A stretch of DNA of 64,000 nucleotides, from positions 62,001 through 126,000 of the forward strand of contig NZ_FOQM01000008.1 of assembly GCF_900113735.1 (NCBI RefSeq), given 5' to 3'. Position 1 is the first letter of the stretch. Every line of letters starts with the position of its first letter. Of this stretch, positions 1 through 13,561 are shown piece by piece. Under the pieces are notes generated by a model. The model searched no databases. It was not told the origin of the DNA and saw only the letters and a program-made list of their open reading frames with translations. A program made the translations under genes and the position numbers. The DNA comes from Bradyrhizobium sp. Gha (GTDB taxonomy: Bacteria; Pseudomonadota; Alphaproteobacteria; Rhizobiales; Xanthobacteraceae).

Positions 1-2
1 GG

Positions 3-104
3 GAAGACGATTTTCCTGCTCGGCGATTGGAGGACAGCATCCCGAACATCATCGCGAGCTTCACGGTTTGGGCATTTGAACGGAAGCGCAGCGCGCGAGG
101 TTAA
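3..104 (+). CDS. 3' end of an upstream gene, probably phage structural (partial)
   Basis: An open frame runs in from the left edge and stops at TAA 102-104, giving about 33 residues ending in VWAFERKRSARG. It lies just upstream of the tail-fibre-like gene and on the same strand, as expected for the preceding gene of a tail operon. The piece is too short to assign a family. A second frame is also open from base 1 to the TGA at 181-183, so the choice of frame is uncertain. Confidence 0.25.
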   Translation, partial: EDDFPARRLEDSIPNIIASFTVWAFERKRSARG

Positions 105-228
105 CCGACAACAAAGTCGGGTTGAGTTTGATGAAGGCGTTGCCGTTTGGGCTCTTTTGCGATACTCTATCCTCACTGGCTGATCACAAGTCGCTTCGCC
201 GGCGGCGTACCTCTCTTGAGGATGCCCC

Positions 229-1797
229 GTGTCTCAGCCTCCGGCCTACAATCGATCGTTCAGCTTCTCAAATTTCCAGGCGCAGAACCCCACTGCGGCG
301 CTGCCCGGCTCGCAAGTCGATATCGAGCTAAACAACGTCAAAGCCACCCTCGACGCGACGCGAGCAAACCTGGCGCAGATTCAGCGCGACGACGGTGGAC
401 TGAAAAATGGGACCGTCACCTTCGATGCGTTGTCGCCCGCGCTGCAGACTGCAGGGCTGGCTCCTGCGTTGCCCTGGGTGACTGCGACAGCCTACGGCGT
501 CAATGCGAGCGTGACACACGGCAGCGCCTTCTATCGGTGCCTTGCCGCACACACTTCCGGAGTCTTCGCAACCGATCTCGCTGCGGGAAACTGGGTGCTC
601 ATCGTCGACTTCTCGACGATTGCGCTTGTAGCCGCCAGCATGATCGCCGTCACACCCTCCGGCACGCTCACCAGCAACGTTCAGACTTCGCTGCAAGCGC
701 TTGATACCGGCAAGGCGCCGTTGTCTCACACACAGCCGTCCTCCACCATTTCCGACAGCACTGCCGCAGGGCGTGCGCTGCTGACTGCGGCCGATGCCAC
801 TGCGCAGAACGCGCTTTTGGGTACCTCGCTATTGGGTTTTCAGGCCGGCGACATCAAAGAGACCGCCTGTCTGACCCTTCAGTCCGGCTGGTACTGGTGC
901 GACGGCTCGGCCAAGAGCCGGGTAACGGACGTCAATCTCTTCAACGCCATCACGATCCAGCAAACCGGCACGCTGGTGTCGGGATCGGCGGTTGTGACCG
1001 GGCTTACGGACACGACCAACGGCGGCTACACGCCGATCTCTCCCGGCATGCAATTGAGCGGCACCGGCATCACGAACGGGACAAGGGTTCAGTCCGTCGA
1101 TTCTGCCACTCAAGTCACGTTGAGCGCGCCGGCGACCATCTCTGGTACGTCACCCCTGGTCTTTGCGCCGTACGGCATAGGCGACGGCTCCACGACGTTC
1201 AATATTCCAAATCGCGCGTACATTGGCGTCGGTCGTGACAACGCCAGCGGCAGCGCCGCGAACGTTACGCAGGTCTCGACCACCATCAGCACGACTTCGG
1301 GCAGCCAGACGGCCACCGTGACGTCTGCGGCAGGGCTGTTCGTTGGCATGTACGTGTCGACGAAGAACATCCAGTCGAACGCCAAAATTATTGGCATCAG
1401 CGGCACCACGATCACCTTTGATACCGCGGCGTCGGCAACGGCGGGCGGTGTCTCCGCACGATTTTCGCCATTGATAGACGCTCAGACCTTGGGCGCGGTC
1501 GGTGGCGAACTCAGCCACGTCAACTCCGTTGCCGAAATGGCTGCGCACAATCACGTCGCGCACAGCGTAGACTTGGGTCACGTTCACAACACTCAAATCC
1601 CGTTGCAAGGCGACACCGGCACGCATGTCGCCAACAAAGTCAGATTCGGCTCTAACGACACCGGGGCGACGGTGCTCAACGTCTCCACTGATGTCGCCTC
1701 TGCGAACCTTGTGACGAGTATCGACAACACCGGAGGCGGCCTCGCACACAACAACATGCCGAAAACGATCGTCATGAACTACATCATCAAACGCTAA
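229..1797 (+). CDS. Phage tail fibre / tail-collar-like protein
   Basis: This is a 522-residue virion protein, probably a distal tail or receptor-contact protein. The start is GTG, chosen because GAGG at 218-221 sits at good ribosome-binding distance. The N-terminal part (about 1-150) is low-complexity and helical. The middle carries the tail-collar signature: a GDIKET...GWYWCDG stretch near residues 206-226 and GDGSTTFNIPNRA near 318-330. Two Ser/Thr/Gly-rich beta segments are inserted around it. A His-rich run with MAAHNHVAHS and DLGHVHNT (about 433-455) resembles the metal-binding HxH repeats of trimeric phage fibres. Two same-strand phage genes follow. The family assignment rests on these motifs, and the exact phage type is not determinable. 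Confidence 0.75.
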   Translation: MSQPPAYNRSFSFSNFQAQNPTAALPGSQVDIELNNVKATLDATRANLAQIQRDDGGLKNGTVTFDALSPALQTAGLAPALPWVTATAYGVNASVTHGSAFYRCLAAHTSGVFATDLAAGNWVLIVDFSTIALVAASMIAVTPSGTLTSNVQTSLQALDTGKAPLSHTQPSSTISDSTAAGRALLTAADATAQNALLGTSLLGFQAGDIKETACLTLQSGWYWCDGSAKSRVTDVNLFNAITIQQTGTLVSGSAVVTGLTDTTNGGYTPISPGMQLSGTGITNGTRVQSVDSATQVTLSAPATISGTSPLVFAPYGIGDGSTTFNIPNRAYIGVGRDNASGSAANVTQVSTTISTTSGSQTATVTSAAGLFVGMYVSTKNIQSNAKIIGISGTTITFDTAASATAGGVSARFSPLIDAQTLGAVGGELSHVNSVAEMAAHNHVAHSVDLGHVHNTQIPLQGDTGTHVANKVRFGSNDTGATVLNVSTDVASANLVTSIDNTGGGLAHNNMPKTIVMNYIIKR

Positions 1798-1809
1798 GGA
1801 GGACACACA

Positions 1810-2277
1810 ATGACAACTCGACTTGTCGAGCTGCCGGAAAAGCCAGGCAATCAAATCTCGCATCTCGAAGACGGCACAGTGTGCCTTCTCGTCTACCCCT
1901 TCACGCGCGAGTGCACGGACGCTGAACGCCAGCTGCTCGAGGTCGCCCCTCGGGCGCGAATTCTGTTCTACGCGGCTTACGACGCGCCCGTGCCGCATGG
2001 CCTGTCACGCCCCGCTTCATTCGAAGATCTACCGCAAGACACCCTTGGCTGGGCGATCCGGAAAGCGACGTTTTTTGCTCCAGCTGTTCTGGACCCGAGA
2101 AGCGAAGATTTTCCCGGCGATCTCGCGAAGGTGCTGCGCAAGATTGTCGACGCTACGGCGAAAGGCGCGGCGCAGAAGCTTCACGTCACCGTCGTCACTG
2201 ATGAGCCAATCGCGCTGGGCCAATATCTGGGCAGGACGCGGCCGAACATTCCGAGCAACGGCGTCGCCGTTGCCTGA
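1810..2277 (+). CDS. Hypothetical phage-associated protein
   Basis: This 155-residue protein starts 12 bases after the tail-fibre gene. It is preceded by an excellent ribosome-binding site, AAGGAGG, so it is almost certainly translated from the same message. I do not recognise a family. The sequence looks like a compact soluble alpha/beta protein with no membrane segment or signal peptide. Its position directly behind a tail-fibre gene suggests a fibre-assembly chaperone or accessory virion protein, but that is inference from context only. Confidence 0.7.
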   Translation: MTTRLVELPEKPGNQISHLEDGTVCLLVYPFTRECTDAERQLLEVAPRARILFYAAYDAPVPHGLSRPASFEDLPQDTLGWAIRKATFFAPAVLDPRSEDFPGDLAKVLRKIVDATAKGAAQKLHVTVVTDEPIALGQYLGRTRPNIPSNGVAVA

Positions 2278-2362
2278 CCGCAACTTTCGCTACGATTCAA
2301 CTTCTCCGCTGCGCCATCCGGAATTCGCGAGCCCGGTCTTTCAAACCAATCTTGAGGACTAG

Positions 2363-4081
2363 ATGCCGCGCATCATCAACGCATACAACGAAAACTCCGC
2401 TCTCGGAAAAACCATCGCTGACCTCGGCGAAGCGATGTTCGGCGATCAAGCGCAAAAGGAGGTCTACCGCCAAAAGGCGTTCGGCCTCAAACGCGAGAAC
2501 GACAACATCCCGCTACTGGCTGACGCCGCGGCGAGCGGAGATCGCAACGCCATTGCGCGTTACGGCGTGCTCGCGGGCAAGACCGGCCAGGACGCTGCAG
2601 ATTTCAATCGGCTGGCCGTCTCAAACCACGCGTCGGGAGTGGACGACCTCCGTCTCGCTCTTGCCACGATGGGCGCAGGCGGGGCCTTCTCCTCGACGGC
2701 CGCAGGCCAGGGTCGGGATCTTGCGAACCGCAGCGGCATCGCGAACATCCAAGCGGGTGCCTCGCGGGACGTCGCGCATATTCAGGCCGACAAGCAGGCT
2801 GCGAGTGACAAGTACAAGTTCGACAACACGTTCGAGCAGACCTACGACGATAATCCGTCAAGCCCCACCTATGGCCGCACCGTTCTGACGCCGCGTTCGC
2901 AGGCAGCCGGGCGCGAGGCGGCGCCAACCAAGGATAGCGTGGTCGGCGGCATGCTCCGACGTGTCGCGGATACGCAGCAGCCCGGCGCTACGCCGGCGGC
3001 GGCCGCAGACCCCTTCAGCAGCATGTCTCCGCGGTGGCAGAAGATCGCCGGCGTCGACCTGCCGGAGCAATCACTCATTGAGCCGCGTAGCGGCACCACC
3101 GGCATCTCTCGGGATGGCGGCCAAACGGTGATCCTGTCTGACGGCCGAACGGTGCCGGCGACGGGCTTTCAGCCCGTCAGCCAGGAGACCGCACTGGGCC
3201 AGGCGCGAGACAACAACGTGCGCGCCAGCGCTGCGCAGCCGTTGACGGCGCCGAACCCGGCGAGCGGTCGTGCTGCGGCTGACGCCGCCGCCACCTCCGG
3301 CCTCGGGCCGAAGCTTTCGACCTTCTTGAACGAAGACATTGGCGCAATTCCTGGTGCGACGACGGTGTTGAAGGCTGCCACCGGATCTCCGCAGATCGCT
3401 CCAGCAGTGCAGGAAGCGCGGCAAAGCCAGGAGATCCGCAACAATCTTGCGCGAACCGTGCTCCTCGGCGCGCCGGGTCGTCAGACCGTCCAAGCACAAA
3501 AGTGGGTGAACGACCTGCTGCCGCAGGGTAATGCACTGGCCAACCCGGCGACGGAGGCCGGGAAAATTCCGGTCGTCGTCAACGCCCTGAAGGCCGACCA
3601 CGAACAGTACCGTCAACTGGCTCTGGACCCCAATACGGCGCCCCAGGAACGCGCCAAGGCGGTCCAGGCGATGCACCAGATCGAAAACACAGTCCGGCTC
3701 TTCACGGAGCCCGCGGCAGGCCCGCCGCCGCCCCAGGAGACCTCTACGCCGACGGCAGGCCGGCCGACAGGCCCCGCTCAGCCTGCCGCGGCCGACCCGC
3801 TGGCGCAGGCCCGAGACGCGATCGCGCGTGGCGCCGACTCGGCCGCTGTCCGCCGGCGGCTTCAGCAGAACGGGATTGATCCCTCCGGCCTCGACGTCGG
3901 CCAGGCGCCACCGCCGCCTAAGATCGGGGAGATGCGGGACGGTTACTCGTTTCAGGGCGGTGATCCTGCTGACCCGAATAACTGGTGGAAACCCCCGCAG
4001 GGAGGCGCGCGGAATAAACCGCAGCAGGTCATCCAGAATGGCCACACCTACACGCTTCAGCCGGACGGAAGCTATCAGTGA
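2363..4081 (+). CDS. Phage virion/ejection-like protein, Ala-Gln-Pro rich
   Basis: This 572-residue protein follows the two preceding phage genes on the same strand, with TTGAGGA upstream of its ATG. It is rich in Ala, Gln, Pro and Asp and has long predicted helical and disordered stretches. A proline-rich linker (residues about 450-490) precedes a short C-terminal module with GYSFQGGDPADPNNW and an NGHTYTLQPDGSY tail. The GGDP..NW module recurs at the C terminus of podovirus internal or DNA-ejection proteins as I remember them. That makes a structural or ejection role likely but not proved. No enzymatic motif is visible. Confidence 0.6.
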   Translation: MPRIINAYNENSALGKTIADLGEAMFGDQAQKEVYRQKAFGLKRENDNIPLLADAAASGDRNAIARYGVLAGKTGQDAADFNRLAVSNHASGVDDLRLALATMGAGGAFSSTAAGQGRDLANRSGIANIQAGASRDVAHIQADKQAASDKYKFDNTFEQTYDDNPSSPTYGRTVLTPRSQAAGREAAPTKDSVVGGMLRRVADTQQPGATPAAAADPFSSMSPRWQKIAGVDLPEQSLIEPRSGTTGISRDGGQTVILSDGRTVPATGFQPVSQETALGQARDNNVRASAAQPLTAPNPASGRAAADAAATSGLGPKLSTFLNEDIGAIPGATTVLKAATGSPQIAPAVQEARQSQEIRNNLARTVLLGAPGRQTVQAQKWVNDLLPQGNALANPATEAGKIPVVVNALKADHEQYRQLALDPNTAPQERAKAVQAMHQIENTVRLFTEPAAGPPPPQETSTPTAGRPTGPAQPAAADPLAQARDAIARGADSAAVRRRLQQNGIDPSGLDVGQAPPPPKIGEMRDGYSFQGGDPADPNNWWKPPQGGARNKPQQVIQNGHTYTLQPDGSYQ

Positions 4082-4113
4082 GGAGGCTGGGAGCACACGA
4101 CGTTGCCGTGTGC

Positions 4114-4818
4114 TCAGTTCTTCGGACCCGGATCTTTGTCGGGCCAAATTTTTTCAAGCCCGTCGATCCACTCGGGCATCAGATCAGAGATATTGTTGTA
4201 GCCGAGTTCGAACGTCATCAGCCCAGAGACCAGGGCGTGCGCCAACTGGCTCGCCGCCTCCTCGTCGCGGAGCCCTCGGCCAAAATGAACAATGAAGTTC
4301 GGCTGGTCGATCTTCGAATAAAGGCCGGAGACGCCGCGCCAGTTGGGGTGAACATACTCGCTCAGCACGTCGTATGCGGCTGAAAATCCCGGCAGCTTTC
4401 GGTCGATTCTCTCGACCAAGGTCAAGACGTTGACCGGATCTGGCATGTCCTGCCAAAGCTTGGTGCCCGCAAACAATCGCATCAGTTTATCGTTGAGTTG
4501 CCCCGGCGTGTAGTTCGCTCGCTGCTCCAGAATTTCGAGGAGATACCAAACCATGGCGGCGCTCTCGGCGATGCCGCGTATCAGCATCGCGGCGACCGTG
4601 AAATCCTTCCTCTCGAGAACGTCGCACGCGTTGCGTCCGAGTTCTTCGGTTCGCCAAATTAGCGCCTCCCGAACGGAAAGAAGCTGGAACGGCGCCTTAG
4701 ACAATACACCGATCGCAGCGATGTCGACGCTATCAGGCAGGCTGGCGCTCAACCGCGCGGAGATGCCCCGGGCTTCTGAGAGATCGTCTAGCCATGTCTT
4801 CTTTTCGTCGCTGCTCAT
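4114..4818 (-). CDS. Hypothetical helical protein, downstream partner of a DUF4238 gene
   Basis: This 234-residue protein is on the strand opposite to the phage structural genes. It lies 49 bases downstream of the DUF4238 gene and in the same direction, so the two probably form one transcript. The sequence is mostly helical. It has an R-G-I-A-E-S-A-A pattern followed by VWYLLE, then an LSEYVHPNW motif about 70 residues later. This spacing of an Arg/Glu helix and a Ser...His-Pro helix resembles DUF5677-type and HEPN-like families, but I cannot confirm membership. I used the ATG at 4818; an in-frame GTG at 4830 would add four residues. Confidence 0.6.
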   Translation of the reverse strand: MSSDEKKTWLDDLSEARGISARLSASLPDSVDIAAIGVLSKAPFQLLSVREALIWRTEELGRNACDVLERKDFTVAAMLIRGIAESAAMVWYLLEILEQRANYTPGQLNDKLMRLFAGTKLWQDMPDPVNVLTLVERIDRKLPGFSAAYDVLSEYVHPNWRGVSGLYSKIDQPNFIVHFGRGLRDEEAASQLAHALVSGLMTFELGYNNISDLMPEWIDGLEKIWPDKDPGPKN

Positions 4819-4867
4819 TGATCGGACCACAGACCGGCGGCTCTGGCTCTCGCGGAGTCCCGAAACG

Positions 4868-5785
4868 CTAGGCGCCGCGCGCCACCGCTAGGATCTCTTG
4901 GCGCTGCTGATCTGACAAGATGTCGCGGTCCGGCAAACTGCCAATGTGCTTTTTTACAAACGCCGCTTGCGTGTCGTCGCTGCCCCAGACGTACTCGCGC
5001 GCCTGCCGGACCACATCAAGATTCATCGCCTTGACGACCTTGGTGTGTCCCGTATTCGGAAGCATTTTTGCGTAGCGCTTGTCTTTTGACGCGACGAAAA
5101 GCTTATACGGCGACAATGGCAACGCCATATAGCAGGCAGGATTATCCAAGCCTAACGGCATAACGAGCGGTCGATCCGAGGTGAGTAGCGAGACGCTTGA
5201 CCTGCTGACATCGACAACCGTGAAGGGAAGCGCTGCAATGTCTGGCACGGCGCGGCTGTCGTGGATAATGTCGACAATCATGTTGGCGGTACTGATCCCC
5301 ACCGCGCCCGGGTTACGCCGCGCCGTCTCTTCTGCCAGCGTACGGATGGGCAAACCACTCCTCGCCTGCGCCTCAGCGAAATCAACCTTCAGCGCGTCAG
5401 TAGCTTCGCGCCACATGTCGGCCATATGCGTGCTGATTGCCTTGACCCCCTCAGGATGCCGATAAAACAGCGAGAGCAGATAGCGCGCCCACGTCAGCCG
5501 GTGTTCTACGGTCAGCGGCTTGCCCGTGATGAGGCGGTCCAGCACCACGGCCGCGTCGTTGTCGAGCGGCGACATGAATTCAACTTCAAGGTCTTGCGAA
5601 TTCGCCTCGGGCACGCCGTCGATGCGGTACAAGTCGTACCGCTTGCCGGTGGCGGCAGGAGGGCGGCGCTTTGCCCAGAGCTTGCCGCCATGGACAAGCT
5701 TCATCGCGCACAGCATGCCGTCGCTTCCGACCCAGCGGCTCTGCGCGAACCTAGGATTGTAATGATGGTCCCGGGGCAGGTTCAT
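4868..5785 (-). CDS. DUF4238 domain-containing protein
   Basis: This 305-residue protein begins MNLPRDHHYNPRFAQ, the characteristic N-terminal HHYxPxF motif of DUF4238 proteins. A central LLTSDRPLVMPLG segment matches the conserved TSDxP region of that family. Its biochemical role is unknown to me. Members often occur as orphan cargo in phages and genomic islands. Here it heads a two-gene minus-strand unit with the unknown gene at 4114-4818, inserted after the plus-strand tail genes, which is the usual layout of a moron or defence cassette. No signal peptide is evident. Confidence 0.75.
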   Translation of the reverse strand: MNLPRDHHYNPRFAQSRWVGSDGMLCAMKLVHGGKLWAKRRPPAATGKRYDLYRIDGVPEANSQDLEVEFMSPLDNDAAVVLDRLITGKPLTVEHRLTWARYLLSLFYRHPEGVKAISTHMADMWREATDALKVDFAEAQARSGLPIRTLAEETARRNPGAVGISTANMIVDIIHDSRAVPDIAALPFTVVDVSRSSVSLLTSDRPLVMPLGLDNPACYMALPLSPYKLFVASKDKRYAKMLPNTGHTKVVKAMNLDVVRQAREYVWGSDDTQAAFVKKHIGSLPDRDILSDQQRQEILAVARGA

Positions 5786-6003
5786 ATCGGCCCCGTATAT
5801 TCCGGTGTGCCGCGATCCTCAAGCTGGTTCCGCCGGTAGTGTTCTGGTAGCTTCTGGCCGCGTGACGCTGGGGAATTGCGCGCCCAGCCCGGCGCCAAAA
5901 ATATTCAACCGATATTGGGCTGTTGAGCCAGAGAAGTTTTCCGTGACCTCGGGCATGACCGCGATCAGGGCGTCAGCCGGCGGCGCAGAGGTGGGAGGGT
6001 GTT

Positions 6004-6468
6004 GTGTCTGACATTGAAATGGCCTTCACCAACAAGGATGCGGTGAGCAACGCAAGGTACGGACTCGGCTGTGCGATTGAAGGAACCTTCGCAGTTTGGC
6101 TTTTCTCGCACGGAAATGAGTATGGGCAAGCTGGCATATGGTTGGCGTATTTTCTCCTAGCTGCAACAGCGACATGTCTGCTCGTCGGCTTCTGCTGGTA
6201 CTTCTTATGGGCATCTGAGAGGCGCATTGCGCAATGGTACTTGGCGAGTATGACCTCGCTGGTAGGCATCGCTTGCTTGATCCTCGACAGACTTTTTGAT
6301 TTCGGCTTTGGAAGCTGGGACGTCGCTCTCGCCTTTGGCCTTCTATATTTCGTCGCAGCATACGGCGTTTGGCGTCTTGTTCGCCGCTCTACTGCGGGAT
6401 GTTTCAACCTCCTGCTGTCGGCCGTGTCGCAGCTCGGTGCCGCTTGGCGCGGGCAACAGCGCAGCTGA
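6004..6468 (+). CDS. Small integral membrane protein, four TM segments
   Basis: This 154-residue protein has about four hydrophobic spans: GIWLAYFLLAATATCLLVGF-like segments near 44-68, LASMTSLVGIACLIL near 80-96, VALAFGLLYFVAAYGVW near 106-122, and a weaker N-terminal one near 25-40. The start is GTG, supported by a GGGAGGG run just upstream. Its composition looks visibly AT-richer than the flanking chromosome, in line with acquired DNA. No family was recognised. Between phage genes it could be a superinfection-exclusion or membrane-acting protein, which is speculation from context. Confidence 0.55.
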   Translation: MSDIEMAFTNKDAVSNARYGLGCAIEGTFAVWLFSHGNEYGQAGIWLAYFLLAATATCLLVGFCWYFLWASERRIAQWYLASMTSLVGIACLILDRLFDFGFGSWDVALAFGLLYFVAAYGVWRLVRRSTAGCFNLLLSAVSQLGAAWRGQQRS

Positions 6469-6523
6469 AAATGGCCTTCACTCTACTGACGGCAAAACCG
6501 CGAAAGGCCCACCCCCCTGGGTA

Positions 6524-7063
6524 TCATCGGAAAGGCGCCTTGTCCGAGCACTCCGACGGACGTTCGCCGGTACGGATACAGGCCCGGTAGCGCCACGGCT
6601 CGACAAAGCTACCAGACCACATGCCGGCGCCGGCTCCTTCGGCCCGGCGCTGGGCATCTGCGTACTGGCCCGCAGAATATTGCGGCCAGTCGAGCGCATG
6701 CCCGTTCGAGACCATCCAATGCGCGATATCCGGTCCGGGGTCGCCGAGCTTACACACGGCGACGATGCGACCGTACTGGTCTCGATCCTTCGGTGCACAG
6801 ATGACAGGGCGCTGGATCGCAAAGAACAGGCCAGCCAGGACGGCGGCCGCCTTCTGCCCGCATCGGTAAAGCTCGCTGTCGTCGCCCCGGCAAAGCTGAT
6901 CGCTCTCCGGCGCATCGATGCCCCACAATCGAATCCTGGTGCCGTGGATCTCTATCGTGTCGCCGTCGATCACGCTGGCGCGGCCCTCGATGTTCTCGGC
7001 CGCCGCGACGCCGCCAGGCATGAGCATCGCCAAGATGGCTAACAGCGCTGACAGCCGGGTCAT
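6524..7063 (-). CDS. Secreted thermonuclease (SNase-like) family protein
   Basis: This 179-residue protein has a clear Sec signal peptide (MTRLSALLAILAMLMPGG, cleavage probably after AAA near residue 22). An SNase-like OB fold follows. VIDGDTIEIHG and IRLWGIDAPES carry the conserved Asp and Arg/Asp residues of the nuclease site, and DQYGRIVAVC corresponds to the second conserved block. Such proteins cut DNA or RNA in the periplasm in a Ca-dependent manner. The start ATG is preceded by AAGG. The gene lies alone between a membrane-protein gene and a ligase-like gene. The family is recurrent in Bradyrhizobium, and its biological role there is unclear. Confidence 0.8.
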   Translation of the reverse strand: MTRLSALLAILAMLMPGGVAAAENIEGRASVIDGDTIEIHGTRIRLWGIDAPESDQLCRGDDSELYRCGQKAAAVLAGLFFAIQRPVICAPKDRDQYGRIVAVCKLGDPGPDIAHWMVSNGHALDWPQYSAGQYADAQRRAEGAGAGMWSGSFVEPWRYRACIRTGERPSECSDKAPFR

Positions 7064-7166
7064 GACACCTTCTTTGTGCGCCGGGAGAGTGCGGCAGGTT
7101 GAGGATCGTCGACCGGCCGACTACGTACTGGGGGAGTGGTTGTTGTAAGCCATCACAGCTGAGCCA

Positions 7167-7757
7167 TCACAGCTCCCGTTCCATCGAGGGGTGAGCCCGG
7201 TTCTTCACCTTCACCCAGTGCTTCTGCCGTCCGCCTCGGTACGGCCGATCCCGATGCTTTGAGACCAAGCCTTCGAGACCCATGCGGCACGCCGCTCGGA
7301 ATAGCTCCGGCCCGATCTCGCCGCGCTCGAAAGGCGCAACGGTGATGCCGTCCGGACGGCGCGCCAAAAGCGTTTCCAGGTTGGTCTTGCGCAGGTGCAA
7401 GGGCAGGGCGCGCAGATCATCACCGCCCATGGCGAGGATATCGAAGGCGTAAAGCTGCACCTCATGCTCGTGCTTGCGGGAGTGCAGCGCGTTGAAATCG
7501 GAAATGCCGTCGAGGCCGAGGACCACGGCTTCGCCATCGATGACGAACTGCTTCTGCCGATTCTTCAGCGCGGCCTCAGCAATCCAGGGATAGCGCTTGG
7601 TCCAGTCGGTGCCATTGCGCGAGAGCAGGCGCACGCGTTCGTTCTCCCGAATAACCAGCATCCGGTAGCCATCATGCTTTACTTCGTGAATCCAGTCCGG
7701 CCCGTCGGGCACCTGCTTGCCAGCGGTAGCAAGGCACAGCTCGTACGCGATACGCAT
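7167..7757 (-). CDS. ATP-dependent DNA ligase, catalytic domain only
   Basis: This 196-residue protein matches the nucleotidyltransferase domain of LigD/LigC-type ATP-dependent ligases. It contains motif I KHDGYR with the adenylated Lys, motif III LYAFDIL, motif IV EGLVSKHRD and motif V KHWVKVKNR. It stops soon after motif V, so the C-terminal OB-fold domain that holds motif VI and closes over DNA is absent. No Ku, polymerase or phosphoesterase domain is adjacent. Standalone catalytic-domain proteins like this recur in Bradyrhizobium genomes. It may be a truncated paralogue, an RNA or nick-sealing variant, or inactive. I chose the ATG at 7757; a GTG at 7775 is also in frame. Confidence 0.8.
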   Translation of the reverse strand: MRIAYELCLATAGKQVPDGPDWIHEVKHDGYRMLVIRENERVRLLSRNGTDWTKRYPWIAEAALKNRQKQFVIDGEAVVLGLDGISDFNALHSRKHEHEVQLYAFDILAMGGDDLRALPLHLRKTNLETLLARRPDGITVAPFERGEIGPELFRAACRMGLEGLVSKHRDRPYRGGRQKHWVKVKNRAHPSMEREL

Positions 7758-8059
7758 GAAAGCCCAGATATGCACTCACACGCGAATTTACCAAGCCGAG
7801 CCGACAGGGCGAGTTCCTAACCGGAACAGTGCTGAAGCGAACAGTAGGAATGCTGCAAGCTTGATAGCCTCGTTCTCGCTTGGTCCTTGCTAGCGTGAAG
7901 ACCAGGTAACCTCCAGCGGCCCCGACCTCACCGCTCCCCTCTACCGGGGCCGGGGCCGTCCACGCCCTCATCGTCCCTCGCTGCCCGCGCGCAGGATGGC
8001 GCGTTGTTGGCCGCAAGCTGACAGACAATCCTCCCACGGCGTGTGTCGAGCGGATTGCC

Positions 8060-8422
8060 TTACGCCGTGCCTCGGAGCGGTAGAGCGAGCTGTACGTCTA
8101 GGCGCCTCGTGGCGTTGGCCTGGACGAAAGCCTCAAGCGCGGGCGAGAGATCGAGCCTTTCATGAGCAGCGCGCTCGGCGAGCGCATCGGCGATGTCCTC
8201 TGTTGCGTCGCGGGACCAGCCCTCGATGGCGTTGAAGACGACGATCCGCACTGGATAGGCATACTGGCCCGAGATCAAGTCCCGTAGCACCGTCTCGCGG
8301 TCGGTGTCCTGCTCGTCGGTCTCGCGCCAAGAGCAGCCGGCGCGCGCCCCGAAGTCCTCCAGCACCAGGTAAATGTCGCGGTCCAAACGATCCAGCGGCA
8401 CAATCGAGGGCGAGGCACGCAT
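8060..8422 (-). CDS. Conserved small hypothetical protein
   Basis: This 120-residue soluble protein begins MRASPSIVPLDR and contains LVLEDFGARAGCSWRETD and VFNAIEGWSRDATEDIA. I remember this pattern as a recurring uncharacterised family in Bradyrhizobium, often with several copies per genome. The start was chosen at 8422 because GGAG lies upstream at a suitable distance; the frame is open further up but lacks such a site. No catalytic motif or membrane segment is seen. Function unknown. Confidence 0.7.
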   Translation of the reverse strand: MRASPSIVPLDRLDRDIYLVLEDFGARAGCSWRETDEQDTDRETVLRDLISGQYAYPVRIVVFNAIEGWSRDATEDIADALAERAAHERLDLSPALEAFVQANATRRLDVQLALPLRGTA

Positions 8423-8567
8423 GCGCTTACTCCGATACTCTGCGGAGAGACGGCCCCGGCTCGCAGGGGGCAAGGGGGGAGTGGGGCCGGGGCCGCTCCG
8501 CCAGCTCGTACCCGCGAGCCAGCGGGATTCACAAGCTTATGCGGCGGCCATTGTTCCTGAAACTCTA

Positions 8568-8600
8568 AGCGGTTGGGTGCAGTTCGCACCGCCGCTTTTT
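8568..8600 (+). terminator. Terminator-like hairpin with T-run
   Basis: AGCGG (8568-8572) pairs with CCGCT (8592-8596), and an inner arm GGTGC (8576-8580) pairs with GCACC (8586-8590). Five T residues follow at 8596-8600. No plus-strand gene lies immediately upstream, so either it ends a small untranslated transcript or it is a relic. Confidence 0.4.
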
Positions 8601-8670
8601 GTTCTCGTTTCTCGGATGCATGGAGTGCTGTGTGCTGATGTGTCCGAGCCCAGTGGCACCATTACAAGAA

Positions 8671-8705
8671 AGGGCCCCAGCCGGGGGGCTTCCCGCCAGG
8701 GCCCT
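8671..8705 (-). terminator. GC-rich hairpin, probable minus-strand terminator
   Basis: AGGGCCC (8671-8677) and GGGCCCT (8699-8705) are perfect inverted arms around a G/C-rich loop. On the minus strand the hairpin is followed by a T/C-rich run. It starts at the stop codon of the 18-codon open frame listed next. Confidence 0.4.
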
Positions 8706-8761
8706 CAGTTATCCGGCACGACCATTTGGATAGAAGTGCCAGCCGCCTCAAAACTGAACAT
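8705..8761 (-). CDS. Candidate 18-residue micro-ORF ending on a hairpin
   Basis: ATG at 8761 opens an 18-codon frame (MFSFEAAGTSIQMVVPDN) whose stop overlaps the first base of a GC-rich hairpin on the same strand. The tight coupling of stop and hairpin is the only positive sign, since the ribosome-binding site is weak. It may instead be the remnant end of a decayed gene. Conservation across Bradyrhizobium islands would decide. Confidence 0.2.
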   Translation of the reverse strand: MFSFEAAGTSIQMVVPDN

Positions 8762-8920
8762 CGCCCGTGCGGGCTCGGTATGGCGACATTTTGCGGAAAG
8801 CTAATCCAGGTTGTGGCGCTTAGGGCGATTGTGTGATCTGCGCTCCACTCTGCCCGCCGGGCGACGATCAGACGGTCCACCTGGTGAAGGATGATGGCAG
8901 TGTGGAACTTGACTGATGCA

Positions 8921-9163
8921 TTATGGCCGACGCTTGCCCCGGCGCGTTGGCCGAGCGACAGAACGTGTTCTCCGCTGCGTAACGAGGTCGTCCATCAGCT
9001 TCTGCTGAAGCTCTTCGGCCTGTTCCTTTGTCAACCTCTCTGCGAAGTAACCATCTTTTCCCAACTGCGCTGGTCTCTTGAGTTCTCGATCGTAGACCAT
9101 CCAGTCAACGCTACCCTTCCGAACGATGAACCTAGGGCCCGGCGGCGGTGTGTTGTTGGGCAA
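8921..9163 (-). CDS. Conserved small hypothetical protein
   Basis: This 80-residue basic protein contains WMVYDRELKRPAQ and a C-terminal ERLTKEQAEELQQ helix. I remember this pattern from many Bradyrhizobium proteins of unknown function. The start was placed at a TTG (9163) because GGGAGG lies six bases upstream of it. The frame extends further upstream only through a second TTG without such a site. No membrane segment or catalytic motif is visible. Confidence 0.6.
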   Translation of the reverse strand: MPNNTPPPGPRFIVRKGSVDWMVYDRELKRPAQLGKDGYFAERLTKEQAEELQQKLMDDLVTQRRTRSVARPTRRGKRRP

Positions 9164-9396
9164 CGTTAGCCTCCCACCTGGTGGGGCCGCTGGTTTCAAA
9201 TTTGCACACCAGGCGGCCGTTTATTCTTGAACTGGGACACCGAAAGTCTCAGCACCGTCTAAACTGCAACCTCTATGCCGGTCGGTACCTCGGCGCGTTT
9301 CAGCGTGCTCAAATCTGAGCGCTGGTAGCACGATTTGGAGCAAGCCGTGCGGCACATTACCCAAGGCGAACGAAAAATCCGCTACTCACCAAAGCC

Positions 9397-9666
9397 TTAG
9401 GCGCCGTCGCCACCGCGCTCCGGGGTTTTCTCCGGGGATTTGCCGATCGCCTGGCGCAGCAGAGCGATGTCGCGCTCGCAAGCTTTAAGCTTACGCGCGG
9501 CCTCCGCGGGAGCCATGAGCCATGTGCCGGCCGGTGCGCGGGCGATGACGCCAAGATTGCGGGCGCGTTCTTCCCATCGCTCGAGGGTCTCGGCTAACGC
9601 CTTGACCGCCACGCGCCGCACAGCGGCACCGTGGTGCGTTATTTCGGCTTGGGGCTTGTCCGTCAT
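9397..9666 (-). CDS. Small hypothetical protein
   Basis: This 89-residue, mostly helical protein begins MTDKPQAEITHHGAAV and contains TLERWEERARNLG and KLKACERDIALLRQAIG, suggesting a short coiled coil. An AGAGAG sequence lies upstream of the ATG at 9666; the frame remains open upstream but without a better start. Function unknown. It sits between other small island genes on the same strand. Confidence 0.5.
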   Translation of the reverse strand: MTDKPQAEITHHGAAVRRVAVKALAETLERWEERARNLGVIARAPAGTWLMAPAEAARKLKACERDIALLRQAIGKSPEKTPERGGDGA

Positions 9667-10126
9667 GGTCGAAAGTCTCTCTGGCGCATGGGCGGGGTTG
9701 CTAGGGGGTTTCCAAAAGGCGGTAATGATCCGGCCCTTTACAACAATCTCCGCCTCGCTACCCTGCGCCGAGACTCCAGTTGGTGATGGCCAGATCGTGC
9801 GGACCTGGCCATCACCGTGCGGGTGTCGCTCCAGAGGGGCGGGGGTCGGGTTTACATCCTTGCCAAAGGGCCGGTCTCCGTCCCTCGTGTGAGCCGCAAC
9901 CAGCGACTCAGCGGTTGCAATCTGCCATGCTCCGTGACTCACGCGCATCCGTGCCTGTACGGACCAGCGAGTTATTCGACCTATTCACAGCCTCTGTGAG
10001 TTTCGGGGATACCGGGGATTTATCGTCGGGCTGCGGAAGGGCGTTGACCGCCTCAACCGTCTCGCTTGAGCTGGCGCACGTTAGGGTGGTAAGCCCAACC
10101 GCAACTCTTTTGAGCCCATTACCTTC
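9667..10126. other. Intergenic stretch with a perfect 12-bp inverted repeat
   Basis: No convincing gene occupies this 460-base interval upstream of the ATPase-TOPRIM gene. It contains perfect 12-base inverted arms at 9782-9793 (GGTGATGGCCAG) and 9805-9816 around an 11-base loop. No T-run follows, so it is more likely a protein-binding site or an RNA hairpin than a terminator. The rest holds nothing I can name. Confidence 0.45.
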
Positions 10127-11728
10127 ATGCCTGATATCAAACTTCCTTCCGGCCTGGTTGTCCCAGGCGATCACCCGCTTGCCATCATCGGTCCTAATGG
10201 AGTCGGCAAAACTCGATTGGGCGTATCGATTTCGCAGAACAGCGACGGGGAGCGGATCGCGGCACTCCGTAATGTCGAAATTCCTGACATTCCGATGCAG
10301 CGCTTGGCGCAGGCCAGTCAAAACGTGAGGAATGTGCTGAATGAAATGATGTCCCAGCACTGGCGGCAGTCCTATGAGCTCCAAAACCTCCTGTCTGAAA
10401 TATTAGCTGAGGACCGTGAGAGAGCTGTCGGCTTTCGGACGGAAACGCTCGCTCAGAGAAAGCCGTCTGACGATCTCGTGTACACTCGCCTCGATAAGGT
10501 AGTCGGCTGCTGGAATCGTCATTTTCCCAATCGCCAAATAAAGATCGACTACGAACCTGTGGTGGAGCGGAAAATTGGATCCGAAAAGGTCACCTATCCC
10601 ATCGCTCGGATGAGCGAGGGTGAGCGCACGGCTCTCTATCTTGCCGCTCGCGTAGTCAGCTGCACGAGAGCCGTGATCGTCGTCGATGAGCCCGAGTCAT
10701 TCTTCCATCCGTTGCTAGCGCGCGCCCTATGGGATGATCTCGAAGACTTGGCGCCCAATACTCGGTTCGTTTACATCACTCACGATATCCCGTTCGCATT
10801 GTCACGGAGAAGGGCGCAGTTTGCGATCGCTCGCTCGGAAACAACTGCCGATCTCCTTCCCCCTGCTTCTGCCCTCCCGGCCGATTTAGTGGCCCAAGTT
10901 TTTGGCGCAGCATCTTTCTCGGTCACCGCGTCAAGACTCGTCTTCTGCGAGGGAAAGCCGGACAGCTATGACCTGGAGATCTTGAGCGCTTGGCACGACT
11001 GCCCCCGGACAGCTGTCGTTGCAACGGGCGGCTGTCATGCCGTCCGCGAGTGCGTTTCGGTTTTTCGGTCCGGTGTGGTTACAGGTGGGCTTGAGGCTGT
11101 TGGCTATATTGATCGAGATGGTCAGCCGGATTCTGTGCTGAATTCACATCCACATGTGAAAGCTCACCCGGTCTTCGAGATCGAGGGGTTCATTTGTCTC
11201 GAGGCGATTTTCAAAGCAATTGCGAAATATACCGGTATCAGCGAAGCAACAGCGGACGACCGATACCGAGACTTCATCACGACGGCGAAGGCCTCATTCA
11301 GGGGCGTGACCTTGCACAAGGAAATTCTTTCGCGCTCAAAGTTGCGTGCGGAGGTCATGCTTGTCGCCTTGATGAACCCGATCAAACCAGATCCCGATTT
11401 GGCTAAAGTGAGGACAGCTTTCGAGGTCGCCGCTCCGGTTGGTGGCTGGCAGCCGGCGTTCGCAACGATCTTCACCGAGGAAGGATCTCGTCTGCAAGCT
11501 TCACTAACTGGAGCATTCCACGATTTTATCCGCGACTTCCCTTCTAAGAGCTACTACTCCTTGGCCGCGCAACGACTGGACATGACTCCGGATGCAGTCG
11601 TCCGCCTAATGTGCCAAGCGCTGAAGATCACGGACAAGGAGTCTGCCGAAAACAAGAAGCTGGTAGAGTTGCGCGACGTGATCGTTACCGCACTGACGCC
11701 GTTTATGTGGCCGCGCAAAGTAGCCTAG
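10127..11728 (+). CDS. ABC-type ATPase fused to a TOPRIM/DUF4435-like domain (PARIS/OLD-like defence effector)
   Basis: This single 533-residue protein has two halves. Residues 1-265 form an ABC/SMC-type ATPase: Walker A GPNGVGKT (22-29), signature MSEGER (162-167), Walker B VIVVDEPE (183-190, D187/E188) and the switch His in ITHD (H219). Residues 270-533 resemble TOPRIM/DUF4435: FCEGKPDSYD (E275, D279) supplies the first acidic motif, GYIDRDG (D329, D331) the DxD motif, and FEIEGFI (E351, E353) the third acidic patch. This order is known from fused PARIS systems (AriA ATPase plus AriB nuclease) and from OLD/GajA nucleases. No UvrD-like GajB helicase or reverse transcriptase lies nearby. The gene looks AT-richer than the chromosome and sits next to an attachment site. 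It overlaps the convergent 11725-11955 gene by four bases. Confidence 0.8.
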   Translation: MPDIKLPSGLVVPGDHPLAIIGPNGVGKTRLGVSISQNSDGERIAALRNVEIPDIPMQRLAQASQNVRNVLNEMMSQHWRQSYELQNLLSEILAEDRERAVGFRTETLAQRKPSDDLVYTRLDKVVGCWNRHFPNRQIKIDYEPVVERKIGSEKVTYPIARMSEGERTALYLAARVVSCTRAVIVVDEPESFFHPLLARALWDDLEDLAPNTRFVYITHDIPFALSRRRAQFAIARSETTADLLPPASALPADLVAQVFGAASFSVTASRLVFCEGKPDSYDLEILSAWHDCPRTAVVATGGCHAVRECVSVFRSGVVTGGLEAVGYIDRDGQPDSVLNSHPHVKAHPVFEIEGFICLEAIFKAIAKYTGISEATADDRYRDFITTAKASFRGVTLHKEILSRSKLRAEVMLVALMNPIKPDPDLAKVRTAFEVAAPVGGWQPAFATIFTEEGSRLQASLTGAFHDFIRDFPSKSYYSLAAQRLDMTPDAVVRLMCQALKITDKESAENKKLVELRDVIVTALTPFMWPRKVA

Positions 11729-11955
11729 AAATCTGGTCGCACGTCGGCCCCGCGGCGGCCGCATTTCGTGCAGGTGAATTGCGGCTCGAGATCCGACAGT
11801 CTGACGTCGTCGGCCCACTTTTCGACCTCGTCCGGCGCCAGGCGCACCATGTGGCCGCAGCGGTAGTCGGCGCAATAGACCAGCAAGCCGGGCGTCCCGC
11901 CTTGGCCGGCGCGCATTTCGCCCAGCGTGATCTTTTGCTCGCGGCCCTGGCTCAT
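11725..11955 (-). CDS. Small zinc-ribbon-like hypothetical protein
   Basis: This 76-residue protein begins MSQGREQKITLGEMR. It has cysteine pairs Y-C-A-D-Y-R-C and C-T-K-C-G, spaced like a small zinc ribbon, and ends GADVRPDF. I remember this as a recurring Bradyrhizobium hypothetical family. ATG at 11955 is preceded by GAGGG. The frame stays open upstream through a hydrophobic segment but without a clear start. Its stop overlaps the stop of the ATPase gene on the other strand by four bases. Function unknown, possibly nucleic-acid binding. Confidence 0.65.
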   Translation of the reverse strand: MSQGREQKITLGEMRAGQGGTPGLLVYCADYRCGHMVRLAPDEVEKWADDVRLSDLEPQFTCTKCGRRGADVRPDF

Positions 11956-12235
11956 TCGCCACCCTCGACCAGCTTTGATCACGCCTGAGTTGACGTCCAC
12001 GAACGTGTTGAGTGCCACAAACGCTGTCGCGACGATCGCACAGGCGACAAACGGTCACCTTGAACCAATTGGTCGTTCATTCCGCCTCCTGCTTTCCACT
12101 ACACCTCACCCGGGCGGCAGCTTATGTCACGCGAACGCAGTGAGAACAAACCGTTGCCAATAGGAATGGAAAGCGCAACGGTTTCAACGCTGGGAATTTT
12201 CCCAGGTTGCCAAAAATGACAAGCAAAAACAAAGA

Positions 12236-12712
12236 TTAATGCGCATCTGGGAGACTAGGGGTCGGAGGTTCAAATCCTCTCGCTCCGACCATTTTCTTCA
12301 GAGATTGACTAAATGCTTGCGTGATCGCGGGTCGGCAAGCGAGGTCCTGCTTTCGGGACGAGTCTGTGCCGGCGGCTGGCCATCCGCACGCGTGGCTCTG
12401 GCAGTGCGGCTCTGGAGCAGCCTTGCCATGAGCCCGGGTCTCGTGGGTCCAAATCTTCTTGGTCCAAGTCTCCTGGGTCCAAGTCTCCTGGGTCGGCGTC
12501 TCCTGGGGCAACGTCTCATGGGTCCACGCCCGGACGGCGAAAGCGAGCTGATGCTGCCCCATCGTGTCGACGAAGGAGGCTCCTGCGCTCTGCAGCCGTT
12601 TGACCAGTGCGCTGGCGCTCAGGTCCATGAGGGCATCGGCTGCCAAAAGGGACACTGACAGCAACGCAATCGCTGACCCAACGACAATTCCCTTCCATTC
12701 CTGTGACTGCAT
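12236..12712 (-). CDS. Hypothetical membrane-anchored ORF running across the attachment site
   Basis: This 158-codon frame has an N-terminal hydrophobic segment (VVGSAIALLSVSLLAADAL). A threonine/tryptophan repeat of the form TQETW follows, encoded by 15-base tandem repeats. The C-terminal residues VGARGFEPPTPSLPDAH are the antisense reading of the tRNA-Pro fragment, a well-known artefact. The tail is therefore not genuine ancestral coding sequence; if the gene is real, integration changed its end. The ribosome-binding site is weak. The N-terminal half may be real and the whole frame is doubtful. Confidence 0.3.
   Translation of the reverse strand: MQSQEWKGIVVGSAIALLSVSLLAADALMDLSASALVKRLQSAGASFVDTMGQHQLAFAVRAWTHETLPQETPTQETWTQETWTKKIWTHETRAHGKAAPEPHCQSHACGWPAAGTDSSRKQDLACRPAITQAFSQSLKKMVGARGFEPPTPSLPDAH
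12247..12291 (+). other. Attachment site: displaced 3' half of tRNA-Pro(GGG)
   Basis: From the anticodon loop onward this matches a tRNA-Pro: anticodon GGG at 12249-12251, 3' anticodon arm ACTAG, T arm GGAGG-TTCAAAT-CCTCT, acceptor strand CGCTCCG, discriminator A and encoded CCA (12289-12291). The 5' half is absent: the upstream bases do not form the D arm or the 5' acceptor strand. A tRNA truncated at its anticodon loop is the classic right-hand attachment site left by a tyrosine-recombinase element that integrated in the tRNA gene. The intact tRNA-Pro and the integrase should lie to the left of this window. Confidence 0.8.
12439..12528 (+). repeat. Six tandem 15-bp degenerate repeats
   Basis: Six head-to-tail copies of a 15-base unit close to TCTCCTGGGTCCAAG fill this 90-base stretch. 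Copies three and four are the most alike and the outer ones diverge. Because the unit length is a multiple of three, they read as a repeated T-Q-E-T-W peptide on the minus strand. They lie about 150 bases outside the attachment site, on the chromosome side. Confidence 0.7.
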
Positions 12713-12882
12713 CAACTTACTTTATCAGGTAATTCGCCGCCCGGATAGGTGGGGTTTCTGTACGCGGTTCAACCCCTGGAGGGACCAACGCACGTATTCT
12801 TGAAGAGCGACGATTCTGTAACGGGGCCCGCCCGATCCTCGCACATGCCGGCCGGCCGCAACCCCGTCAAGGCCAGACGCCG

Positions 12883-13512
12883 CTACGCGGACCGCCGCAG
12901 ATACCCCACCAGCATCCGCGTCGTTTCATCCACCAGCCTCCGCACAACTTTCTCCGGCAGGATCTCGGCCTGGTTCAGCACCACGTTATGCGCGACCGCC
13001 TCGGTTGCGCTGACGCAAATGAAGGTTGCGACATCGAGGTCGAGCTTGCGCATCTCCTTGCGGCGGCTGTCGAGATAGGCGCGCACGAGCGCGTGGACCT
13101 CGCGGCCATAGGCTTCGACGTCGAGCTTGCCCGCACGCGGGATCTGCTCGGCGAGGACGCGATGCAGTTCGGGCCTGATGCGGTGCGCCTCGATCGCAAC
13201 GGTGACGAGGCGGCGCACGGCTTTTTCGATCGGCATCTCGGCGACTTCGACGAGCGCTGCGCGAACCAGCGCCATGATTTCCTCGTTGTGACGATCGATC
13301 ACGGCGGCCACCAGCGCCTCCTTGCCCGGAAAATACTGGTAGAGCGAGCCGATGCTGACGCCGGCGACTTCGGCGATCCGGTTGGTGCTCGTCTTCTCAA
13401 AGCCTTCGCGAACCAGAATGCGAGCAGTTGCCTCGACCAGCGCATCGACCGTGGCGCGGGATCGCTCCTGCGAGGCTTTTTTCCGGGGTTTCGTCGCTGC
13501 CTTGCGCGCCAT
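12883..13512 (-). CDS. TetR/AcrR family transcriptional regulator
   Basis: This 209-residue repressor has an N-terminal helix-turn-helix in residues about 15-70. Its signature TSTNRIAEVAGVSIGSLYQYFPGKEALV is split here as TSTNRIAEVAGVS plus IGSLYQYFPGKEALV. A helical ligand-binding domain follows. It starts at ATG 13512 with a Lys/Arg-rich tail; the frame remains open upstream but MARKAATKPRKK is the natural start. It is divergent from the esterase gene at 13633, with a palindrome between them, so it probably represses itself and that gene in response to a small hydrophobic ligand. Confidence 0.85.
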   Translation of the reverse strand: MARKAATKPRKKASQERSRATVDALVEATARILVREGFEKTSTNRIAEVAGVSIGSLYQYFPGKEALVAAVIDRHNEEIMALVRAALVEVAEMPIEKAVRRLVTVAIEAHRIRPELHRVLAEQIPRAGKLDVEAYGREVHALVRAYLDSRRKEMRKLDLDVATFICVSATEAVAHNVVLNQAEILPEKVVRRLVDETTRMLVGYLRRSA

Positions 13513-13526
13513 GGCCTGCCGTTTCG

Positions 13527-13561
13527 AATGCGAGTAGAAAAAGCGAGCGATTGCTCGCATT
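13527..13561. promoter_or_regulatory. Likely TetR operator
   Basis: A perfect palindrome GCGAGC-GATT-GCTCGC (13543-13558) is nested in a wider inverted repeat, AATGCGAG at 13527-13534 and CTCGCATT at 13554-13561. It lies just upstream of the tetR start and 70 bases before the divergent hydrolase gene, the expected place for the operator of that regulator. Confidence 0.6.

Follow-up and report, generated by a model that had tools for sequence, protein, structure and literature searches.

Genomic islands that integrate into tRNA genes leave a recognisable layout, with a regenerated tRNA gene at one end, a displaced 3' tDNA fragment at the other and the integrase between them, and of the 3,919 islands in the Islander collection 2,083 are anticodon-centred and 3,760 have a 3' fragment (PMC4383910). 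Among rhizobia, the Sinorhizobium phage phiLM21 and the prophage phiSM11-017 integrate in tRNA-Pro(GGG), and their attP holds the 45-bp 3' end of the gene (PMC12429752). A tRNA-Pro gene is also the target of a Bradyrhizobium symICE of 0.33 Mb, symICEs being elements with a T4SS locus (PMC9174649, PMC9239051), and tRNA hotspots have been described in S. meliloti (PMC11476347).

The locus described here, in Bradyrhizobium sp. Gha, has the layout and the anticodon-loop site of Islander-type islands and, measured against that description, its sole difference is an integrase gene split between reading frames. It resembles phiLM21 in its 45-bp core, the 3' end of tRNA-Pro(GGG), but the element is 22.8 kb long whereas the phage is 50.8 kb (phiLM21/phiSM11-017; PMC12429752). 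Its integrase may belong to another lineage than the phiLM21 type: when the full-length integrase of a relative was compared by tblastn with 50,697 phage records, eight matched, none of them from Sinorhizobium. The tRNA-Pro target is shared with the Bradyrhizobium symICE, yet the element is far shorter, and no relaxase, T4SS or other conjugation gene was found among the 20 ORFs scanned with Pfam, which argues against a conjugative element of that kind. The site and the mode of integration are already known and the footprint is a textbook one, of which this element is a new instance; no paper naming the element or its integrase family was found among titles and abstract openings, a coverage that mostly leaves out subscription papers.

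The DNA analysed (hereafter the window) is a stretch of 64,000 nucleotides, C64:62001-126000 of an 8.25-Mb genome in a 95-contig draft; coordinates without a prefix are those of the window. An earlier note on this DNA had proposed that a truncated tRNA-Pro(GGG) at 12247-12291, cut at the anticodon loop with its CCA kept, marks the right end of a tRNA-integrated element, and for the tRNA part these coordinates are exact. The bases read CTGGGAGACTAGGGGTCGGAGGTTCAAATCCTCTCGCTCCGACCA, the 3' half of tRNA-Pro(GGG) with CCA included, and begin two bases before the GGG anticodon, i.e., at base 1 of the canonical seven-base anticodon loop CTGGGAG, while the bases to their left are unlike the tRNA 5' half except for one T. 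ARAGORN called no tRNA at this position, and in the whole window it called only a tRNA-Leu and a tRNA-Val. The displaced core (C64:74247-74291) and the core of an intact tRNA (C64:51422-51466) lie on the plus strand of one contig, 22,825 bp apart from core start to core start. The repeat exceeds the tRNA part by one base on the left and nine on the right, and chance is excluded because its two copies, in the same orientation, are identical at 55 of 55 bases (E = 7.9e-22 in a one-genome search). The features of the window that bear on the element are as follows.

1-12246, no strand: the part of the element inside the window, 12.2 of 22.8 kb on its right-hand side (limits of the element set by the two core copies)
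229-1797, plus strand: phage tail collar / tail fibre protein (PF07484, E = 2.7e-5, 24.5 bits against a cut-off of 24; phrog_8763 tail protein, 7e-13)
2363-4081, plus strand: 572-aa protein of no known family, with a relative in an island of genome G190 at the tRNA-Pro core
6524-7063, minus strand: staphylococcal-nuclease-like protein (PF00565, 7e-10)
7167-7775, minus strand: fragment of a LigD-type ATP-dependent DNA ligase (PF01068, 1.6e-28; TIGR02779 covers 3-187 of 302 model positions, under the curated cut-off)
10127-11728, plus strand: AriA-like ATPase (PADLOC AriAB, 2.8e-39, residues 5-377 of 533; PF13304, 1.9e-9)
12167-12246, plus strand: the element's right arm inside attR, carrying a putative arm-type integrase site GTTGCCA (aligns with seven other attR ends; heptamer present twice in its own attL arm)
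12246-12300, plus strand: full 55-bp direct repeat (55/55 identity with the attL copy at C64:51421-51475)
12247-12291, plus strand: displaced 3' half of tRNA-Pro(GGG), the attR core (same bases as in the intact tRNA's 3' half, C64:51422-51466)
12883-13560, minus strand: TetR-family regulator, the nearest gene on the right that is clearly chromosomal (TetR-type models, all under curated cut-offs)

Directly right of the junction, a unit of about 15 bases (CTCCTGGGTCCAAGT-like) was seen by eye to recur in imperfect tandem at 12440-12510. A 159-aa ORF on the minus strand at 12236-12715 ends in antisense tRNA sequence (GARGFEPPTPSLPDAH), and ORFs with such an end are a common annotation artefact.

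The whole element occupies C64:51422-74246, of which the left 10.6 kb precede the window, and its GC content of 61.0% is lower than the 63.7% of the left 7.4 kb and the 63.6% of window positions 12301-64000. The earlier note had expected an intact tRNA-Pro with an adjacent tyrosine recombinase upstream of base 1, and both are there. The intact tRNA-Pro(GGG) called by ARAGORN at C64:51389-51466 holds the left repeat copy, and a tyrosine recombinase frame lies about 0.5 kb from it on the minus strand (C64:52010-52723; PF00589, 8.8e-7; phrog_1, 5.4e-14), adjoined by a small HTH-type gene (phrog_25900, 1.5e-4; phrog_66, 7e-4). The second core copy, whose absence the note had named as evidence against its own reading, is thus present. 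The integrase gene as a whole covers C64:52010-53133, with its N-terminal part in another frame and the split near C64:52960-52980. In all eight of the relatives compared (eight of 12 close ones, without G171, G099, G117 and G113), the integrase reads through to its end in one open frame, N-terminal domain included, and all eight split when set against this locus; a stop codon falls within the integrase match in G171, G099 and G117, G171 having nonetheless a 368-aa open frame. The gene appears from its sequence to be broken, barring a draft-assembly error at that spot, which in a draft of 95 contigs could account for the split.

A search of 195 genomes of the genus, including this one, with the tRNA half and the right flank as query recovered sites that lack the insertion. 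In all seven genomes read (G055, G105, G061, G063, G071, G002 and G131, chosen because the tRNA hit adjoined the flank hit), the flanks of the present element, once joined, give a single alignment that runs through the core and across the junction at 82-88% identity with 9-26 gap positions; the tRNA is intact in every one, and DNA homologous to the right flank, on the TetR side, comes after it. G009 and G118 look similar to these in the search but were left unread, and G154 was excluded from the alignment, having one core copy with the flank about 1.7 kb away. The strains with an empty site that the note had proposed looking for therefore exist, and they have the same right flank. Five other genomes (G036, G116, G171, G161 and G034) have a truncated copy beside the same flank, and since an intact tRNA-Pro sits further left in each, they also carry an insertion, so that the same arrangement without an insert, which the note had held would tell against it, was not encountered in them. 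Among these five, an integrase of this kind occurs only in G171 and G161. The core, allowing up to three mismatches, was present in 180 of the 195 genomes, which by our own count have one copy in 141 cases and two or more in 39, and was missing from 15. The tRNA-Pro site is a hotspot in the genus, with at least two copies of the tRNA half in 39/195 genomes; a second core copy is not always an occupied site, the copies being on separate contigs in G113, G112 and G080 and on opposite strands in G088, G106 and G118.

A tRNA island is marked by an intact tDNA and a like-oriented displaced 3' fragment on one replicon, by an integrase between them and by empty sites in relatives, and this locus shows all three. 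It is almost certain in our judgement that a tyrosine-recombinase element integrated at tRNA-Pro(GGG), with the tRNA restored at attL and the original 3' half displaced to attR, and that it has since decayed. The attP of the element would have carried a copy of the tRNA-Pro(GGG) 3' half and recombined with the chromosomal gene, by an exchange that we place at the repeat's anticodon-loop end. A full tRNA would then have been rebuilt at attL, beside the integrase, with the 3' half brought in by the element, and the chromosome's original half would have moved 22.8 kb off to attR, at 12247-12291. Under this model the truncated copy is presumably the 3' half that the chromosome had before the insertion, and the intact gene would now bear that of the element. 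Later decay would have split the integrase frame and reduced the recognisable structural phage genes to one.

The truncated copies that were read lose their resemblance to the tRNA at the anticodon loop, only copies with the whole 45 bases being findable. The allele-replacement model is supported by G057 (C170), because the displaced half there differs from the intact tRNA by a G-C to A-T pair: the intact tRNA has the common G-C pair in its T-stem and the displaced half A-T (pairing taken from the fold), and the G057 element appears to have replaced its host's tRNA allele. Against the simple model, in G099 an element with a related integrase has, at the integrase end, the core without a tRNA 5' half; both core copies there (on C1) are without a 5' half, and the intact tRNA-Pro(GGG) of G099 is unaccounted for.

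Close relatives of the integrase, at 65-80% identity over at least 190 residues, occur in 12 other genomes of the 195 searched; the search had matched 26 genomes including this one, from which G187 (72 residues), G106 (66 residues) and matches at 30-38% were dropped. The named contigs carrying the integrase, in a scan that finds close relatives only, are six from Bradyrhizobium and one from a Hyphomicrobiales MAG. The integrase-side end was read in ten of the 12 (leaving out G177, whose sequence was not retrieved, and G113, whose cores are on two contigs), and an intact tRNA-Pro(GGG) stands there in nine (G171, G108, G057, G117, G193, G078, G133, G150 and G161), the exception being G099. Judged from core positions, the elements span 11.9 kb in G193, 12.1 in G078, 22.8 here, 26.6 in G133, 37.7 in G171, 39.1 in G150, 39.4 in G108, 40.4 in G057, 41.1 in G099 and 45.5 in G177; G117 has a single core copy. 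Three core copies stand in a row on contig C1 of G161, in what looks like a tandem of two elements of 20.0 and 54.5 kb.

The integrase and its HTH neighbour are common to all nine relatives compared. Of the 19 other genes of the element, just four (the AlpA-like, DUF3987, collar and ligase genes) were matched in these relatives, each over parts only and at 38-52% identity in G161 or G133, in a comparison that lacked G117, G113 and G177 and included the elements of G161, G057 and G099 with gaps. Scans for phage genes in the relatives, which covered G108, G161, G193 and one protein of G078, found terminase, head and tail genes in G108, portal, head and tape-measure genes with a piece of terminase in G161, a terminase and a tape-measure gene in G193, and an exonuclease in G078. 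The same-integrase elements (G108, G057, G150, G171, G161 and others) are therefore like the present one in integrase, HTH neighbour, arm organisation and tRNA-Pro(GGG) target, but differ from it in largely unrelated cargo and, in G108 and G161, in having head and packaging genes. As the integrase and HTH gene are shared and the other genes are largely unrelated, one integration module serves different cargoes.

The DNA inside attR can be aligned across eight elements and that inside attL across ten. Both arms carry a seven-base motif, GTTGCCA here and TTTGCCA, GTTTGCA, GTTTACA or GTTGTCA elsewhere, which may be an arm-type integrase site. In seven of the eight elements, including this one, the attR heptamer equals an attL heptamer of the same element, and G171 is off by one base. 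A pairing as good arose in only 8 of 40,320 permutations, a figure that is not an independent probability as the columns were picked after alignment and the elements are related. The eight were those left after excluding G133 (right end of another type), G117 (one core), G113 (cores on two contigs), G177 (sequence not retrieved) and G099 (no tRNA 5' half at the integrase end). The matching attR and attL heptamers support reading the two ends of this element as one pair, and such a match offers a simple means to pair element ends at crowded sites. Ends need not pair at every site, since the right end of G133 is of another type than the arm of the integrase family and resembles that of G190.

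Now that both ends of this partly visible island are fixed, annotation can treat the opening 12.2 kb of the window as mobile cargo. From the tRNA, the gene order is split integrase, HTH-type gene, 254-aa ORF, AlpA/HTH_17 gene (PF12728), 904-aa DUF3987 protein, two ORFs and a resolvase (PF00239); within the window follow the tail collar gene, 155-aa and 572-aa ORFs, a DUF4238 protein, the nuclease, the LigD-type ligase and the AriA-like ATPase, with familyless ORFs interspersed. A structural phage family was matched by one of the 30 ORFs scanned against PHROGs (a subset of the element's ORFs), and this is the tail collar protein. Most likely the element is an island, or what is left of a prophage, stranded at a site of a type already known. 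With its integrase gene divided between reading frames and a single recognisable structural phage gene, it can probably no longer move on its own. The earlier note had called the segment 1-12,291 mobile or formerly mobile: it is indeed element DNA, of which the window has only the right 12.2 of 22.8 kb, and "formerly" fits better given the split integrase. Of its wording "island or prophage", the island stands, and the prophage finds no head or packaging family among the 30 ORFs.

The 904-aa DUF3987 protein matches the phrog_2373 helicase, and its similarity to RepB primases is weak. Its relatives in ten other genomes of the 195 are at 33-41% identity over the helicase part, none of them close, and neither of two candidates in viral contigs was confirmed. 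The 572-aa protein has no Pfam or PHROG match; no relative was found in phage records, and none of four viral-contig candidates was confirmed. G190 is the only other genome of the 195 with a match at E <= 1e-10, at 54% identity, or 56% in the comparison of element genes. The G190 locus (C12; L092:5900-17039) holds another integrase beside a copy of the tRNA-Pro core, with a primase, a resolvase 88% identical to the present one and a 548-aa homologue of the 572-aa protein; the resolvase and this homologue were matched together, some 8-11 kb from the core copy. The cargo is thus mosaic, with the resolvase and 572-aa gene recurring in a different island, and the history of the element may be composite. 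The AriA-like ATPase, near the right end, is possibly a fused PARIS (AriAB) defence gene; residues past 377 lie outside the AriAB match, and a sequence search of the PDB returned no PARIS structure and two weak ABC-transporter matches. As a possible sign of phase variation, inverted repeats were sought around the resolvase and tail gene, and of 28 pairs none was convincing among the 25 listed.

A formal alternative, for which nothing was found and to which we give practically no credence, is that an ordinary duplication or rearrangement on a small scale, without site-specific integration, produced the tRNA half: resemblance to the tRNA breaks off at the anticodon loop here as it does in the other truncated copies that were read, an integrase adjoins the other copy, and empty sites join the flanks. 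A composite origin, in which two elements inserted in tandem at tRNA-Pro were fused by deletion and the right boundary is not that of the integrase's element, has more to commend it, as tandem occupancy is known from the three core copies of G161, the right-end arm of G133 is unlike that of the integrase family and like that of G190, and the resolvase and 572-aa gene match a G190 island bearing another integrase. We nevertheless regard it as unlikely, given that this genome has just two core copies and that its attR arm shares a heptamer with its own attL arm and aligns with the attR arms of elements carrying the same integrase.

The single decayed element that we favour could also be misjudged in kind. 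An intact, inducible prophage would agree with the tail collar gene and with the phage genes held by same-integrase relatives (G108, G161), but it is very improbable: the integrase is split over two frames where eight of eight relatives compared have one (an assembly error being possible), no terminase, portal, head or tape-measure gene was matched in the 30 ORFs scanned, and 22.8 kb is short against the 37.7-45.5 kb of six relatives, two others being only about 12 kb. P4-like and PICI satellites have an integrase, an AlpA-like regulator, a primase-helicase and a defence-like gene. The present element resembles them in all four, with PF00589, PF12728 and DUF3987 above cut-off and the RepB primase weak and below it; unlike them, it has no recognised satellite packaging or packaging-hijack gene, and it carries a tail collar gene. 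It might conceivably be a phage satellite and not a dead prophage, one of a little-described rhizobial group at tRNA-Pro sites that swaps integrases and lends a tail part to its helper phage, although we think this doubtful; the swapping is suggested because this genome and G190 share the resolvase and 572-aa protein and differ in integrase. An equally speculative part of this reading is that the integrase, AlpA, primase-helicase, resolvase, tail collar gene, 572-aa protein and PARIS-like defence gene would travel as a set.

Elsewhere in the genome, at C39:178789-178871, stands a lone 84-bp piece that is 92% identical to the DNA inside attR and stops at the first bases of the core (CTGG). It runs on into a fragment resembling the end of a G071 gene, which we take to be a YqaJ-type exonuclease, and the piece has the look of a scar left by another element that has since gone.
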